Below are positions 31,806 through 39,563 of a stretch of DNA of 39,852 nt, in pieces (position 1 is the first letter of the stretch; every line of letters starts with the position of its first letter). The position numbers and the translations under genes are program-made. The stretch lies in contig PMMG01000139.1 of the NCBI GenBank assembly GCA_003162335.1, positions 1-39,852 on the forward strand, read 5' to 3'. The notes under the pieces were generated by a model, which worked only from the letters and a program-made list of their open reading frames with translations, was not told the origin of the DNA and did no database searches. This stretch comes from Dehalococcoidia bacterium. Its GTDB lineage: Bacteria; Chloroflexota; Dehalococcoidia; Dehalococcoidales; Fen-1064.

Positions 31806-32636
31806 ATGGCTACTAATAACAATATCGAGAGTATCAGTTTAGGGGATGCGGTCGGGAAATATCTGGCAATTTTGCCAGATGAGAAAAAGAATGCCGCGCA
31901 ACAGGAAATTAACAATTTTATCCGCTGGTACGGTGGTCGTGAGAAAACCCTGGACAGCCTCGAAGGTTCTGCCGTCGGTAATTACGCTGAACGTCTGGCC
32001 AAAACAGATGCTGCTTGTATGCAAAAACTGGATCTGGTCCGTGGGTTTCTCACCTACGCGCATAAGCAGCGCTGGTGTCAGGAGAACCTTTCAGTCAGTA
32101 TTCGTATCGTGAAAAAAACTCCATCTAAAACCGCTTCATCTTCGGCAAAAAAGAAGAATCAGAAGAAAAACGCGGTCTGCATGACCCAGAAAGCCTTTAA
32201 TGAAATTGAAATTGAATTAAAAACCCTACAGGAAAAACGACTTGTGGTGATTGAAGATATTAAACGAGCCGCCGCGGATAAAGATTTTAAGGAAAATGCG
32301 CCTTATCATGCCGCGCGCGAACAAAAAAGTCTACTCGACGGCAAGATCATGGAACTCGATGAGATGGTTGCTAACTCGGTCATCATCGAAGAAAACCTCA
32401 ATACCAATACCGCTGTCATCGGAAGCACCGTTCTCTTACAGAATCTGGATTCGGGTAAAGAATGCCGCTATACCCTGGTCGGCCCTCGTGAAGTCAACCC
32501 TGCTAAAGGTAAGATTTCAGCCGTTTCACCCGTCGGTAAGGCGGTCTTCGGTAAAGCCGCCGGCGATAAATTCGAGGTAAATGTCCCATCCGGTAAATTG
32601 CACTTTGAACTAAAAGTCATCGAACACTCTAAATAA
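31806..32636 (+). CDS. GreA/GreB-type transcript cleavage factor fused to N-terminal tyrosine-recombinase SAM-like domain
   Basis: C-terminal 'AADKDFKENAPYHAAREQKSLLDGKIMELDEMVANSVII...KISAVSPVGKAVFGKAAGDKFEVNVPSGKLHFELKVIE' is GreA-like; N-terminal about 100 aa resembles integrase core-binding domain. Confidence 0.85.
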   Translation: MATNNNIESISLGDAVGKYLAILPDEKKNAAQQEINNFIRWYGGREKTLDSLEGSAVGNYAERLAKTDAACMQKLDLVRGFLTYAHKQRWCQENLSVSIRIVKKTPSKTASSSAKKKNQKKNAVCMTQKAFNEIEIELKTLQEKRLVVIEDIKRAAADKDFKENAPYHAAREQKSLLDGKIMELDEMVANSVIIEENLNTNTAVIGSTVLLQNLDSGKECRYTLVGPREVNPAKGKISAVSPVGKAVFGKAAGDKFEVNVPSGKLHFELKVIEHSK

Positions 32637-32962: not shown

Positions 32963-33238
32963 ATGGCAGACTGGCAGGTAACCGCCGTTACAATCAATTG
33001 CCCCTCAGTGGCAGAAGAAGTGACTATCATTGTCAAAAGCGATTGGTCCGTTCAGTGCTCCGGTTTTGAAAAATATGCATCCTCCCGCCGTGCCCAGTTG
33101 GCTCTAGTTGACCGTAGTCTGACGATCAAACGCGTTCTCGAATGTAAAAGTGTAGAGTGTAACCAGATTACCGAATACGTCCAAAAATTACAGGCGGAAG
33201 AGAATCACAAAATTGAGCCCACCGGAGACAAGAAATGA
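32963..33238 (+). CDS. Small four-Cys hypothetical protein
   Basis: 91 aa; 'INCPS', 'VQCSG', 'LECKSVEC'; overlaps the downstream ATPase start by 4 nt (ATGA). Confidence 0.6.
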   Translation: MADWQVTAVTINCPSVAEEVTIIVKSDWSVQCSGFEKYASSRRAQLALVDRSLTIKRVLECKSVECNQITEYVQKLQAEENHKIEPTGDKK

Positions 33239-34026
33239 CAACCCCTGCCGAACGTCAGGTAAAAATAAAAATCGAGAATCTCTCACTTTCGATTGGCAGT
33301 GTGAAATTGCTGGATAATATCAATATCGATGTCTATGACAATGAAATCCTTGCCGTGATCGGCCCTGCTGGCGCCGGTAAAACTGCTCTGCTCAATTGTA
33401 TCAATGGTTTTCTAAAACCGCAAAACGGCGATATCTTTTTCGAAGGAAAGAAAATTACCGGCATCCGTCCAGACAAAGCGGCGCAACTTGGCTTGGGGCG
33501 CACTTTCCAGAATAGTGAATTTTTTCCAGGATTAACAACACTCGATAACCTCATGGCTGCCCGCCATTTGCTTGTCGACCAGAATTTCCTTACCGGCGCT
33601 CTCTATGTTGGACCCGCTCACGGGGAGGAACTCGACCACCGCCGTGCTGTCGAAGATATCATCAGTTTTTTGGGACTGGAAGCAGTCCGAAAGAGCCTTG
33701 TCGGCACACTATCCGATTACCTGCGTAAAAAAGTCGAACTTGGCCGTGCACTAGCTACCGAACCGTCAGTCCTGTTGTTGGATGAACTGACAGCAGGTTT
33801 GAAACCGCAAGAACGAACTGATATTACCAATCTCATTTTGGATATTTTTAAAGGACAAGGTGACATCTATCCTCGCACGCCGGTATTACGCGATGGCGTC
33901 AAATGCATCGTGTTATTTGCGCGCGATTTGGCCTCCGTTTCATCTATTGCAAACCGTATCGTCGCCCTCGATTCCGGTAAAAAGATGGCCGAGGGCAAAC
34001 CCGCTGAAATCAAAACAACCCACTGA
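33235..34026 (+). CDS. LivG-like ABC ATPase with degenerate signature and H-loop
   Basis: Walker A 'GPAGAGKT', Q-loop 'TFQNSEFFPGLTTLDNL', Walker B 'VLLLDE', but 'LSDYLRKK' replaces the signature and 'FARDL' replaces 'EHDM'. Confidence 0.85.
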   Translation: MTTPAERQVKIKIENLSLSIGSVKLLDNINIDVYDNEILAVIGPAGAGKTALLNCINGFLKPQNGDIFFEGKKITGIRPDKAAQLGLGRTFQNSEFFPGLTTLDNLMAARHLLVDQNFLTGALYVGPAHGEELDHRRAVEDIISFLGLEAVRKSLVGTLSDYLRKKVELGRALATEPSVLLLDELTAGLKPQERTDITNLILDIFKGQGDIYPRTPVLRDGVKCIVLFARDLASVSSIANRIVALDSGKKMAEGKPAEIKTTH

Positions 34027-34119: not shown

Positions 34120-35808
34120 TTACTCCATTGTCTTTGACCACACCGCTTTAGATCGGAAACCCACTCTTTCCAGCAGCGCATCGCCCGTCATCATAAAGGT
34201 GAATATTATCAGTGAAAGACAGAATGCCGGCCAGAGCCCCAATCGAGGAGCTGTGAACAGATATTGTCGCCCTTCATTTGACAGCATTGTTCCCAGTTCC
34301 GGAACTCCCGGAGGCACGCCAAGACCGACATAACTGATTGCCGAGAAATAGATGATGACACTGGCGGTGGCGAATAAAAATACCACCGGTAGCGACCACA
34401 ACACCCCTTGCAGACAGCTCTTTCCCTTCGGCGCTGAAAGGTAAGCTTCCTGAACCATGCCTGCAGCACGGGGCAGCATTACCAAGCCGCAGATCACCGC
34501 AGGAAAAACAGTGCTCATACTCAACGGGTTGAAGGATATTATGAGCCAGATCAACGCCAGCCATGGTAAAGCACAAACGATTTCTTTGGGTAGCATTACC
34601 AGGTCTTCCAATGTATCCCCTGTCCAATTATTCATCTTCCCGCAATAAGCTGCCAACATTCCCCAACCGGCAGCTGCGATGGTTACTACTGCTGCGCAGG
34701 CGATACCGATTAAAACATCGATTCTGATACCATAAAGCAGACGGCTGAAAATGTCTCTACCCAGTTGGTCGGTGCCCAATAGGTATTTTGCCGACGGCGG
34801 ACTGAGCCTGTCTATCAGGTGGATCTCATTCATACCATAGGGCGCCAGCAGCGGTCCGATTATCGCTACCAATACGATCAGAACGACTAATGCCAATGAG
34901 AATATCAGCCACCACTGCGGTATGGCAAACCGTAACGGACTTTCCGACTTATCCTGTTCAATATTTGCCAGGGTTTTATTGGCATAGTTGTAGGCGATTT
35001 CTAATAAATTGGCGACCAGTTTCGCCGCGACCACGATCAGTACGAATATCCAGATTATACCGAAAACTACCGGGAAATCTCCGCTCAGAGTGGATTGCAG
35101 CAGTAAACTTCCAATGCCGATTTCCAGTGTTACCACTATGATAATACCGATCAATCTTAACAACCTGATTACCAATTTGATGATTCCGTGGTATGCCAGC
35201 GTCCTGAAAGGCGTATTTCCCGGCCATTTTGCCAATTCTCCATGTCCGGTCTGTGTCAGCAGACCCGCGGGCAGGATACACGCGCATAAAGCAGCCAGAT
35301 ATATTAAGGGAGATGAATTAGCGGGCAGCCACCAATTCCAACCGTAAAGATGAAAAATTACCATCATTCCTACTGATAAAGGTCCGAAAGTCAGGATAAG
35401 AATGCTCGAACTGCTGCTGACCAGCACCACCCGTAAAATACTTCTCAACCGCGCCAGCCAATTTGGTTTTTCAGTAAAACGACGGATAAAAAAACCGACA
35501 GATAGCGTGATTCCTGCAATTATTAGACTGAACAACCCTGTTAGCCCGATTAATTGCATTGTCAGACTTATGCGGGGATTGATATCTTGTGCCACAGTGT
35601 GACCTGTCCAAATAGATTTATTCCAGTCCCATGTAGCGGAATCACGGGAAACTGGGATTTTACGTCCTGTGTTTATCTGGTTGACTACATTTACGGGTAT
35701 AGCATGCCTGAGGACCAGTAATATGAGCCACACGATGAGTAAAATCAACCCGGCAAATACTATTTTCCGCCCCGCCGCAATCAGCGCACGTTTGCCTTCT
35801 GTACTCAT
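34120..35808 (-). CDS. Fused DppB-DppC-like ABC permease
   Basis: 562 aa; N-terminal half DppB-like, C-terminal half DppC-like with 'PPSAKYLLGTDQLGRDIFSRLLYGIRIDVLIG' and 'SYVGLGVPPGVPELGTML'. Confidence 0.85.
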   Translation of the reverse strand: MSTEGKRALIAAGRKIVFAGLILLIVWLILLVLRHAIPVNVVNQINTGRKIPVSRDSATWDWNKSIWTGHTVAQDINPRISLTMQLIGLTGLFSLIIAGITLSVGFFIRRFTEKPNWLARLRSILRVVLVSSSSSILILTFGPLSVGMMVIFHLYGWNWWLPANSSPLIYLAALCACILPAGLLTQTGHGELAKWPGNTPFRTLAYHGIIKLVIRLLRLIGIIIVVTLEIGIGSLLLQSTLSGDFPVVFGIIWIFVLIVVAAKLVANLLEIAYNYANKTLANIEQDKSESPLRFAIPQWWLIFSLALVVLIVLVAIIGPLLAPYGMNEIHLIDRLSPPSAKYLLGTDQLGRDIFSRLLYGIRIDVLIGIACAAVVTIAAAGWGMLAAYCGKMNNWTGDTLEDLVMLPKEIVCALPWLALIWLIISFNPLSMSTVFPAVICGLVMLPRAAGMVQEAYLSAPKGKSCLQGVLWSLPVVFLFATASVIIYFSAISYVGLGVPPGVPELGTMLSNEGRQYLFTAPRLGLWPAFCLSLIIFTFMMTGDALLERVGFRSKAVWSKTME

Positions 35809-36073: not shown

Positions 36074-37060
36074 TTATAGAGTCTTGAATATTAACCGGTG
36101 TGCTGTTCTTCCACAAATACAGCGCTCAGTGGTATAAGATGCCATTGCGCCTGTGCCGAATCTTATCAAACCCCACACTTTGTTGTCGATCGGCGTCACC
36201 ACTATTTCCCCTACCTCTCCCGGCTTCAACTGATTCCCGGTTGCCGGATCGACGATTTCCACTACATAGTCATCCGACATGTGGAAACCTGCCTTTTGCG
36301 GACATTCGTAGGTGATCGCACCGCCTGCCTCGGGCACTGTATAGGCTTGCCTTGTATCGATGCCGTAGTTCTCTTCCAGTTTCTTCCGGTCTTCGGGCAA
36401 TAACATTTCGCTGGTAAACCAGGCGCGTTCCAGGTTAAAAGAGTTGCGGAAATCCAGTCCCATTTCTTCCGCCTTTGTGATCAGGCTCATCATCATTGAA
36501 GGCCTGCCGACAAAACCATTCACTTTGAGGTCGCGTATGACCGGTAATTGGGCCTCGGGATTATTTTCGCCGGCTGGAATGACAGTCGCGCCGCATTGTC
36601 TCAGTCCTTCATGGGCCAGCATACCTTCCGTACCGTGGTTGTAATCAAATGCATTAATTACAATATCGCTCTTTCTAAATCCGGCTGCCCACAATGCCCG
36701 GGCAAACCACTCGATTTTGGCGGAATGCGGCGGCAGGTAGAATGGGCCGGGAGCTATAAATACTCTCTCTACAACTTCCGGTTTTATCGCTAAAAATCCG
36801 CCGTAGGGCGGTTGCGCTTTTTGCCGCTCGACCAAATCGTTCCTGCGGATAATCGGCAGCCGCACCAGGCTTTTCATAGAGTGTATGTCACGCGGTTTTA
36901 CGCGTGCTTTGTCCATCATTTCCTTTGCGGCCGGAGCATACTTATAAGCGTGACTGATTGAGGCACGCAACTTTCTTTCCAGGTAGATGTGCCTTGCGTT
37001 GACAGGGCGCTCTTCCAGGTCGTCAAAATAAATGTCTTTTCGGGTTGACTTTAATACCAT
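36074..37060 (-). CDS. Phenylacetate-CoA ligase (PaaK)-like protein, degenerate and C-terminally truncated
   Basis: 'SISHAYKYAPAAKEMMDKARVKPRDIHSMKSLVRLPIIRRNDL', 'CGATVIPAGENNPEAQLPVIRDL', 'RCICGRTAHRL'; ends before the lid domain. Confidence 0.82.
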   Translation of the reverse strand: MVLKSTRKDIYFDDLEERPVNARHIYLERKLRASISHAYKYAPAAKEMMDKARVKPRDIHSMKSLVRLPIIRRNDLVERQKAQPPYGGFLAIKPEVVERVFIAPGPFYLPPHSAKIEWFARALWAAGFRKSDIVINAFDYNHGTEGMLAHEGLRQCGATVIPAGENNPEAQLPVIRDLKVNGFVGRPSMMMSLITKAEEMGLDFRNSFNLERAWFTSEMLLPEDRKKLEENYGIDTRQAYTVPEAGGAITYECPQKAGFHMSDDYVVEIVDPATGNQLKPGEVGEIVVTPIDNKVWGLIRFGTGAMASYTTERCICGRTAHRLIFKTL

Positions 37061-37093
37061 TTTAATAGCCTCGAAATAGACTGCTTTCCGCTA

Positions 37094-38113
37094 TCATTTT
37101 AATATCTTCCAACCGTATTTGCGCCGGTCCGGCAGTAGTGCCAGGAATACTATTGAAACAACCACCACTATTATCATTGCCAACCATGAAGGACCGTCCC
37201 CCGGTATTAGCTTTGTGCCCAGGATGGCGGGCGCCAGTTGATTACTGATTAGAACGACGATAATCGCTCCCAGTACCGGTCCCCACATCATGCCGAATCC
37301 GCCGATAACCAGAATACCGAGGTAAATAACCGATTGAGTAAAACCGAACATACCAACCATGCCGCTGTTAATCAATCCGGTTGAATGCGCTAAAAGAGCA
37401 CCCGCCGTGCCTGCCATCGCGCAGCCGATACCGAAAGCCAGCAGTTTATAGCGGAATAGATTGACGCCCGTTGCTTCCGCCGCACGCTCGTTATCACGGA
37501 TGCCAATAAAAGCTCTTCCCGTGCGAGTCCTGACCAGGTTGTTACCAAAAAATAGCGTTAAACCCATGATGATCATGATTAAATAGAACTGGCTGCCTGG
37601 TGTTATTACATCGATCGCGCCGACCTTCATGCCACTGACCTTCAGACCATCCGTGCCGCCGGTAACACTTGTCCAGTGGCCGATGACCCACAAAATGATG
37701 AATTGGACGGCGGCGGTGATCAGCGCCAGTTTCCAGCCTTTAACCTTCCAGGTTGGTAGCGCTGTTAGCATTCCCAGCACCCCTGCAATTAAACCCGCCG
37801 CGATCAGCCCGACAATAAATGACTGATTGAATTTGCCGGTCAATACCGCCGAAGTATATGCTCCCACAGCAATGAATCCCGCGTGCCCGATGGAAAGCTG
37901 GCCGCAGTAGCCGGTAATCAGATTGAGCCCGACGGCGGCGATCACCATGATGCCCATCAGGTTGAGCAAACCGAACCAGTAACCGGAAACCCATATCGGG
38001 GCGGTCACCAGTAATATCACGATGATCCACAGCAGCGCTTTTTGAGTTCGTGTGTGGAAGATTGCGGTGTCTTCGTCGTAAGTGTAATTTCGGAGTCCGG
38101 CGGGTAAAGCCAT
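37094..38113 (-). CDS. livM: Branched-chain amino acid ABC transporter permease (LivM-like)
   Basis: 'LNLITGYCGQLSIGHAGFIAVGAYTSAVL', 'RTGRAFIGIRDNERAAEATGVNLFRYKLLAFGIGCAMAGTAGALLA'. Confidence 0.93.
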   Translation of the reverse strand: MALPAGLRNYTYDEDTAIFHTRTQKALLWIIVILLVTAPIWVSGYWFGLLNLMGIMVIAAVGLNLITGYCGQLSIGHAGFIAVGAYTSAVLTGKFNQSFIVGLIAAGLIAGVLGMLTALPTWKVKGWKLALITAAVQFIILWVIGHWTSVTGGTDGLKVSGMKVGAIDVITPGSQFYLIMIIMGLTLFFGNNLVRTRTGRAFIGIRDNERAAEATGVNLFRYKLLAFGIGCAMAGTAGALLAHSTGLINSGMVGMFGFTQSVIYLGILVIGGFGMMWGPVLGAIIVVLISNQLAPAILGTKLIPGDGPSWLAMIIVVVVSIVFLALLPDRRKYGWKILK

Positions 38114-38114
38114 T

Positions 38115-39563
38115 TTAAGTTCCCTCCGTCTTTGCTGCCGCTTTATCAGTCAGGATTAATTGTCCCTTTTCGTCGATTTGAGCCGGGATGCCGGTATAGT
38201 ACCAGCCGTCTATCAAGACCTGGCCGGTTTTAACCGGGTCTTTGTAGTAACCGCTGAACATGGCGGTGCTTCTGACCAGCATTTCGCCGTTTTTCAGGAT
38301 TCTGATTTCGGAGTTCATGGTTGGGCGACCGGCTGTTTTAAAATCGTTCTCTTCCAGACTTTGACTGGCAATCAGTCCGGTTTCCGCGATGGCGAAGGTT
38401 TGCCGGATTTCCACACCGAGCGTGTGCATTAAAAGAAGTGTCTCCATGGCGGGCGCCGTGCCGCCGAAGGATACCGCAAACCTGGTGCGGCTCAGTCCGG
38501 TTTTGTCCTTGAGCGGGCTGCGTATCCAATCGACTGGTAAATCCCAGAGCCGTTGGAAAATGTTGGGCTTTCTGCTTCTTATTTTCAACGAGGCTACTTT
38601 ATTGCCGGTTGGGAGCAAAGTTTTATAAAAAAACCGTGCAATCGGGTTGCTGCCGCTTACTTGCGACTTGATCTCCGCGGCCAGGTTTTCCCATTGCCCG
38701 GCGCTACAGGCGACGAAGTCCGGGCCGGTTTCGCGGGTATCGGGGGCGGATGTTTCCGTGTTCTCCGGGTAGTTCAAAGTCGCGCCGGTGAGCAAATGCG
38801 GCATGGTCGCGAAAAGGCTGTTTTCTGCCGAAGCCGCCGGTAAACTCGCCATCAGGTGGTCTTCGGGTTGAACCGGGAAGCGCAATTGCAGACCTTCGGC
38901 AGAGCTAATGAGTGCCTTGTGAGTCATCACCGCGCCTTTGGGCTGCCCTTTGACATCGAGGGTATAAAAGATGAAGGCCGTGTCATCGCTACGCCCGCTA
39001 TTGATGTTCTGTTCGAAAACGCCGGCATTGGCTTTCCCATAGTCTTCTCCCAATTTGAGCAGAGCGTTGAAGCCGATCAACCGCGGGTCGTCATAGTCTT
39101 TCAAACCTTTCGGGTTGAGGTAGATGATCTTTTGAACGGCGGGTATTTCCGGTGTGCCGGTGAGGAACTTTTCGGCCTGTTTATAATCGGTGACGAAGGC
39201 GAATTTCGCGCCCGACTGCCGGACGATATATTGTGCTTGTTCCGCGGTGGATTCGGCCGGGATGCCAGCAGCGATGCCGCCTGCAGTCTGCGCTGCGAAT
39301 TCAGACCAGAGCCATTCCGGCTCGTTGTCCCCGAGCAGGCAAACGACATCGCCGTGCTGCAGACCCAGGCTGATGAATCCCAGCGAGAGCTGCCGGACAA
39401 TTTCGTAGTACTTGCGCCAGGAATATTTTTGCCAGATGCCGTACTTTTTCTTGCAGAGTGCGGTCTCGATGGCCCACCTGTCGTAGTTGCGACGGACGAG
39501 CTTCGGGATGGTGTCATAAACCCTGGCGGGTCTTTTGGGTTCGATGTTTTTTGGCGTTACCAT
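38115..39563 (-). CDS. AMP-binding (long-chain acyl-CoA synthetase)-like protein, degenerate and C-terminally truncated
   Basis: 482 aa; 'SLGLQHGDVVCLLGDNEPEWLWSEFAAQTAGGIAAGIPAESTAEQAQYIVRQSGAKFAFV' acyl-CoA synthetase N-terminus; core motifs altered. Confidence 0.85.
   Translation of the reverse strand: MVTPKNIEPKRPARVYDTIPKLVRRNYDRWAIETALCKKKYGIWQKYSWRKYYEIVRQLSLGFISLGLQHGDVVCLLGDNEPEWLWSEFAAQTAGGIAAGIPAESTAEQAQYIVRQSGAKFAFVTDYKQAEKFLTGTPEIPAVQKIIYLNPKGLKDYDDPRLIGFNALLKLGEDYGKANAGVFEQNINSGRSDDTAFIFYTLDVKGQPKGAVMTHKALISSAEGLQLRFPVQPEDHLMASLPAASAENSLFATMPHLLTGATLNYPENTETSAPDTRETGPDFVACSAGQWENLAAEIKSQVSGSNPIARFFYKTLLPTGNKVASLKIRSRKPNIFQRLWDLPVDWIRSPLKDKTGLSRTRFAVSFGGTAPAMETLLLMHTLGVEIRQTFAIAETGLIASQSLEENDFKTAGRPTMNSEIRILKNGEMLVRSTAMFSGYYKDPVKTGQVLIDGWYYTGIPAQIDEKGQLILTDKAAAKTEGT

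Follow-up and report, generated by a model that had tools for sequence, protein, structure and literature searches.

A probably old, reduced and non-catalytic remnant of an acyl-CoA synthetase and Liv transporter operon in a Dehalococcoidia bacterium

Results

The window (the whole stretch of DNA analysed here, 39,852 nucleotides of contig PMMG01000139.1 from a Dehalococcoidia bacterium) probably holds an old, reduced and non-catalytic remnant operon on which purifying selection has been relaxed without being absent. The original prediction had described three genes, two degenerate adenylate-forming (ANL) homologues on either side of a LivM permease, and we found all three open frames, on the minus strand, the motif changes it quoted for the FadD-like and PaaK-like proteins, and the missing lids (Table 1). 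It had taken these three genes as the affected unit, which proves to be larger: a damaged LivG belongs to it too, and LivH, LivK and LivF were not found at the locus when it was compared with the order in relatives.

Table 1. Features of the locus, with positions counted from the first letter of the window
Feature	Position	Strand	Description
LivG-like ATPase	33235..34026	+	263 aa; PF00005
OppC/NikC-like permease, between LivG and PaaK	34120..35808	-	562 aa; orphan, with an N-terminal extension of ~300 aa
PaaK-like ANL homologue	36074..37060	-	328 aa; APGP for SPGP, TGD to TGA, no lid
Junction	37061..37093	-	relatives have livK and livF here (~2.1 kb)
LivM-like permease	37094..38113	-	339 aa, fast-evolving; PF02653 (BPD_transp_2)
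Junction	38113..38142	-	place of the FadD lid (~165 codons) and of livH (~0.9 kb) in relatives; neither is present in the window
FadD15/FadD11-like acyl-CoA synthetase homologue	38115..39563	-	482 aa, N-domain only

Our orthologue searches covered 40 related genomes, most of which have orthologues of FadD, PaaK and LivM. The order in the relatives that were fetched is FadD (647 aa)-LivH-LivM-LivK-LivF-PaaK (429 aa), with LivG commonly convergent to PaaK. In the window, LivM starts 1 nt past the FadD stop, and ATTAAAATG stands at the livM end and is repeated at the paaK start, making a deletion via a short repeat possible at this second junction. The OppC/NikC-like permease probably did not belong to the operon in its ancestral form, because PaaK and LivG face each other without it in relatives; it is 46% identical to its counterpart in the congener G004, though PdxS is 99% identical between both genomes (88% for the congener G001). 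Two PdxS copies, 79% identical, are present in the window genome (24949-25830, and contig G000:C80), and G004 also gave two matches. Elsewhere in the window, an open frame at 31806-32636 (+) has ~120 N-terminal residues without a Pfam match followed by GreA/GreB domains. Promoter and terminator scans gave matches at chance level.

The FadD-like protein matches the AMP-binding domain of Pfam (PF00501, E=1.5e-42, residues 28-440), and its N-domain is 54% identical to that of the intact G001 orthologue, in which Pfam also finds the AMP-binding_C_3 lid that it does not find here. Its likeness to the FadD11/FadD15-type long-chain acyl-CoA synthetases (PF00501 with AMP-binding_C_3) consists of this N-domain homology and of the predicted N-domain fold; unlike them, it has lost the A3 P-loop, the adenine GSS motif, the A7 Asp and the whole lid with its A10-type Lys. 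Residues 200-210 read YTLDVKGQPKG in place of YTSGTTGxPKG, the A7 region is GWYYTGIPAQID, in which TGD has become TGI, and the protein ends on LTDKAAAKTEGT with the lid lysine motif ELTRTRK.RR of its relatives absent. Every FadD relative that covers the site has the P-loop (one reads LQKG), and T-x-D Asp and lid motif are likewise kept by all that cover them; since full relatives are all intact, the three losses are derived. The nucleotide-site motifs have 24 of 40 invariant positions changed, compared with 67 of 204 elsewhere in the protein (odds ratio 3.1, Fisher p=0.002), and by this count the ATP site is eroded faster than the remainder. Elsewhere in FadD, one in three invariant positions has changed too, and constraint is therefore weak. 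AlphaFold2, run for FadD only and with 10 remote homologues, returned an ANL N-domain (mean pLDDT 80, pTM 0.81) whose closest structures are fatty-acyl-CoA synthetases and related adenylating enzymes; because the alignment rows are motif-intact homologues, this model indicates that the fold is allowed rather than proven. A protein without P-loop, Asp and lid should not carry out adenylation. A contig scan with FadD gave only homologues of 25-29% identity, mostly from Acidobacteria-type genomes, plus other remote matches, and the window's relatives were not among them.

The PaaK-like protein has a different history. Pfam matches its AMP-binding N-domain but not the AMP-binding_C_2 lid that is found in the G001 orthologue, and its motifs read FIAPGPFYLPP and FGTGAMA. 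In PaaK1 structures, the ATP phosphates are held by the SSGTTGKP loop (PMC8388817). We found this loop missing in 48 of 48 PaaK orthologues, which have SPGP instead (PPGP in one); these were chosen phylum-wide by similarity to G001 PaaK, down to 37% identity, and stand for one orthologous group, not for all PaaK. The window protein has APGP at this place. The loss of the P-loop is thus ancestral, and the same holds for FGTG where R-T is usual. The A7 Asp is kept in all PaaK relatives checked, so that the change of Asp to Ala and the loss of the lid are the only local losses. The original prediction had the two ANL proteins sharing the same losses, which holds for the Asp and the lid but not for the P-loop. 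That both are non-catalytic, as it also proposed, is very probable given these motif and lid losses.

With regard to known families, the likeness to PaaK (phenylacetate-CoA ligase; solved relatives 2Y4O, 2Y27 and 4R1L) is the PF00501 core, and an intact PaaK orthologue aligns over most of the length of these structures; SSGTTGKP is nevertheless missing in the whole orthologous group examined, and the window protein additionally lacks the Asp and the AMP-binding_C_2 lid. The DVU_1553 family of AMP-dependent CoA ligases (NF045666, a 331-position model), a PaaK-type core without a lid-length C-terminus, matches the PaaK-like proteins of both the window and G001; the window protein scores 112 bits against a cut-off of 300 and is not a member. 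LivF adjoins the PaaK-like gene in most of the sampled orthologues. At loci L144-L154 and L156-L173, and at the PaaK loci L022-L040, SPGP replaces SSGTTGKP, yet the A7 Asp and the lid are kept, mostly beside LivF. This P-loop-less group is conserved and is probably a misannotated ANL subfamily: because no orthologue examined has the ATP P-loop, the phenylacetate-CoA ligase annotation is doubtful across the phylum sample.

Both remaining transporter genes have changed. LivM, described as intact-looking in the original prediction, does keep all eight hydrophobic segments, but its C-terminal tail is gone and 28% of the positions that are invariant in relatives are altered; the corresponding figures are 37% for FadD, 19% for PaaK and 27% for LivG, against 0-6% in leave-one-out controls. 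We take the window LivG as the operon orthologue because it shares with G001 its position beside the thiC side. Its Walker A is kept; the signature LPYG has become LSDY, DEPMAG has become DELTAG, the H-loop EHD has become ARD and the C-terminal end is lost, whereas signature and H-loop are intact in 17 of 17 relatives. This remaining ATPase is probably dead. The ancestral locus resembles the LivHMKFG branched-chain-amino-acid-type ABC importers through its LivM (PF02653) and LivG (PF00005) homologues; the window differs from them in missing LivH, LivK and LivF and in having lost the LivG signature and H-loop, which makes ATP-driven import by the window set very unlikely. Outside the locus, the closest homologues of LivH and LivK in this genome reach only 26-30% identity and are parts of other Liv systems, on contigs C15 and C159, that look complete. 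We also considered the window LivM as a backup permease for these systems and rejected this, as each has its own LivM-type permease. Given this state of the transporter, the proposal that the ANL proteins present ligands to it is not supported.

Within the genus, the locus is found in several states. The operon is intact in G001 and G002 (in the latter, FadD is split across two contigs). G003 has lost most of it and has an intact PaaK; there, at L054:1674-2309, the FadD N-terminus (~75 aa) is fused in frame to the C-terminal half of LivF (residues 133-263), with PaaK directly downstream. In G004, a fragment of FadD lies at the end of a contig; it has TGI and the same end point as the window (LILKGK, then the stop), and among the 157 overlapping FadD residues 15 are common to the window genome (G000) and G004 alone, compared with 0-2 in controls; the P-loop of G004 lies beyond the contig end, so this sharing covers the Asp, the lid and the tail. 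Based on the shared TGI, end point and 15 unique residues, the degenerate form of FadD (Asp and lid lost) is older than the split of the two genomes. The original prediction held that finding P-loop, Asp and lid intact among close relatives would point to recent pseudogenisation; G001 and G002 do have such an intact FadD, but G004 has the same Asp and lid losses as the window, and the degenerate protein is not a recent accident of a single genome. A transposase-like ORF (L139:18407-19168, contig G004:C28) lies directly downstream of the G004 fragment. LivM and PaaK were not found in G004, an absence that is provisional in an assembly 83% complete, and the LivG position beside the thiC side is taken by other genes. 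The genus can do without this locus, given that just a FadD piece is left in G004 and that most of the operon is gone from G003.

The reading that competes most directly with an old remnant under weak constraint is an ordinary pseudogene remnant, in which function was lost, decay is neutral and the frames are open only because this decay is recent. Three genes are deleted, the four survivors have all lost their C-termini, catalytic motifs are gone, change is accelerated, and G003 and G004 have deletions at the same locus, all of which fits this reading. However, no stops or frameshifts were found in the four genes, whereas neutral simulation to the same divergence gave a mean of 8.5 stops for FadD, 4.1 for LivM, 3.1 for PaaK and 2.8 for LivG (~18 in total, an expectation that applies to surviving frames, as ORF limits were set after the fact). 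Zero stops occurred in 0, 3, 16 and 20 of 300 neutral runs, respectively; the view of the original prediction that both pseudoenzymes are kept as open ORFs was thus borne out, beyond neutral expectation. The degenerate FadD form also predates the G000/G004 split, and over its 157-codon tail the two genomes differ less at second than at third codon positions (0.47, 0.33 and 0.60 at positions 1, 2 and 3). On this tail, omega=1 on both lineages was rejected (lnL -3741.1 vs -3709.1, 2 x delta lnL = 64) under a codon model with one omega per branch class, in which saturated synonymous sites make omega rough. The dN/dS check suggested at the outset therefore supports constraint on the shared tail but does not extend to the window branch alone, for which a 'functional, then neutral' model comes close to the free model in fit and a late neutral phase is not rejected. 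Pairwise NG86 dN/dS was uninformative for most pairs owing to synonymous saturation, and four-gene branch models hit branch-length bounds. On balance, we regard the pseudogene remnant as doubtful: the data speak for genes that are old, non-catalytic and still open under weak constraint rather than for fresh pseudogenes.

Discussion

From the genes and motifs seen to be lost, the features shared with G004 and the absence of stops, we infer a stepwise reduction. The starting point would be a conserved operon for the uptake and activation of acyl substrates, comprising FadD, LivH, LivM, LivK, LivF, the PaaK-like protein and a convergent LivG. FadD would have lost its A7 Asp and lid in an ancestor that this species shares with one or more congeners, and its P-loop either by that time or afterwards. 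In the window lineage, LivH, LivK, LivF and the PaaK lid would have been lost too, so that neither ATP-driven import nor the making of acyl-CoA would remain. Purifying selection would then have weakened while the four surviving genes stayed open. If the proteins are produced, the FadD and PaaK N-domains most likely persist folded and non-catalytic beside an orphan LivM, and they might bind a membrane partner or ligands of the acyl or aryl type. Such a folded acyl-ligand-binding or scaffold role, suggested by the retained fold, is our likeliest guess for a residual function. It is unlikely, in our estimation, that the ATP-site-less and lid-less FadD and the P-loop-less and lid-less PaaK, with the orphan LivM and the signature-less LivG, make up a lineage-specific, non-enzymatic acyl-ligand-binding module, derived from an importer operon with a PaaK-like partner that was already P-loop-less throughout the phylum sample. 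In the literature searched, we found no account of this cluster or of such ANL pseudoenzymes.

A repurposed module along the lines of the original prediction, in which the pseudoenzymes, LivM and also LivG make up a novel sensor or carrier at the membrane, would account for four genes that are still open, three of them compact with partly 1-nt spacing, for the kept hydrophobic segments of LivM, and for change concentrated at the nucleotide site. We nevertheless find it quite improbable: no LivH or LivK partner is present, the LivG signature and H-loop are broken, and the three-part unit is not conserved, as the G004 assembly has FadD without LivM or PaaK. A chimeric contig or wrong frames mimicking truncations and deletions could arise in a draft genome of 179 contigs, but such an artefact is very improbable, as the junctions lie inside a single contig with normal neighbours, the independent genome G004 has the same FadD end and TGI, and distributed substitutions are not producible by chimerism.

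In conclusion, the reduced remnant operon described here is one in a series of states that the operon takes within a single genus, from intact (G001, G002) through fused and deleted (G003) and a FadD remnant (G004) to the four degenerate genes of the window, and this series shows enzymes losing catalysis with their frames still open. The P-loop-less PaaK-like partner of a widespread LivF-linked operon may outweigh this main result in importance, and whether that group represents a conserved ANL pseudoenzyme or an unusual chemistry is directly testable.
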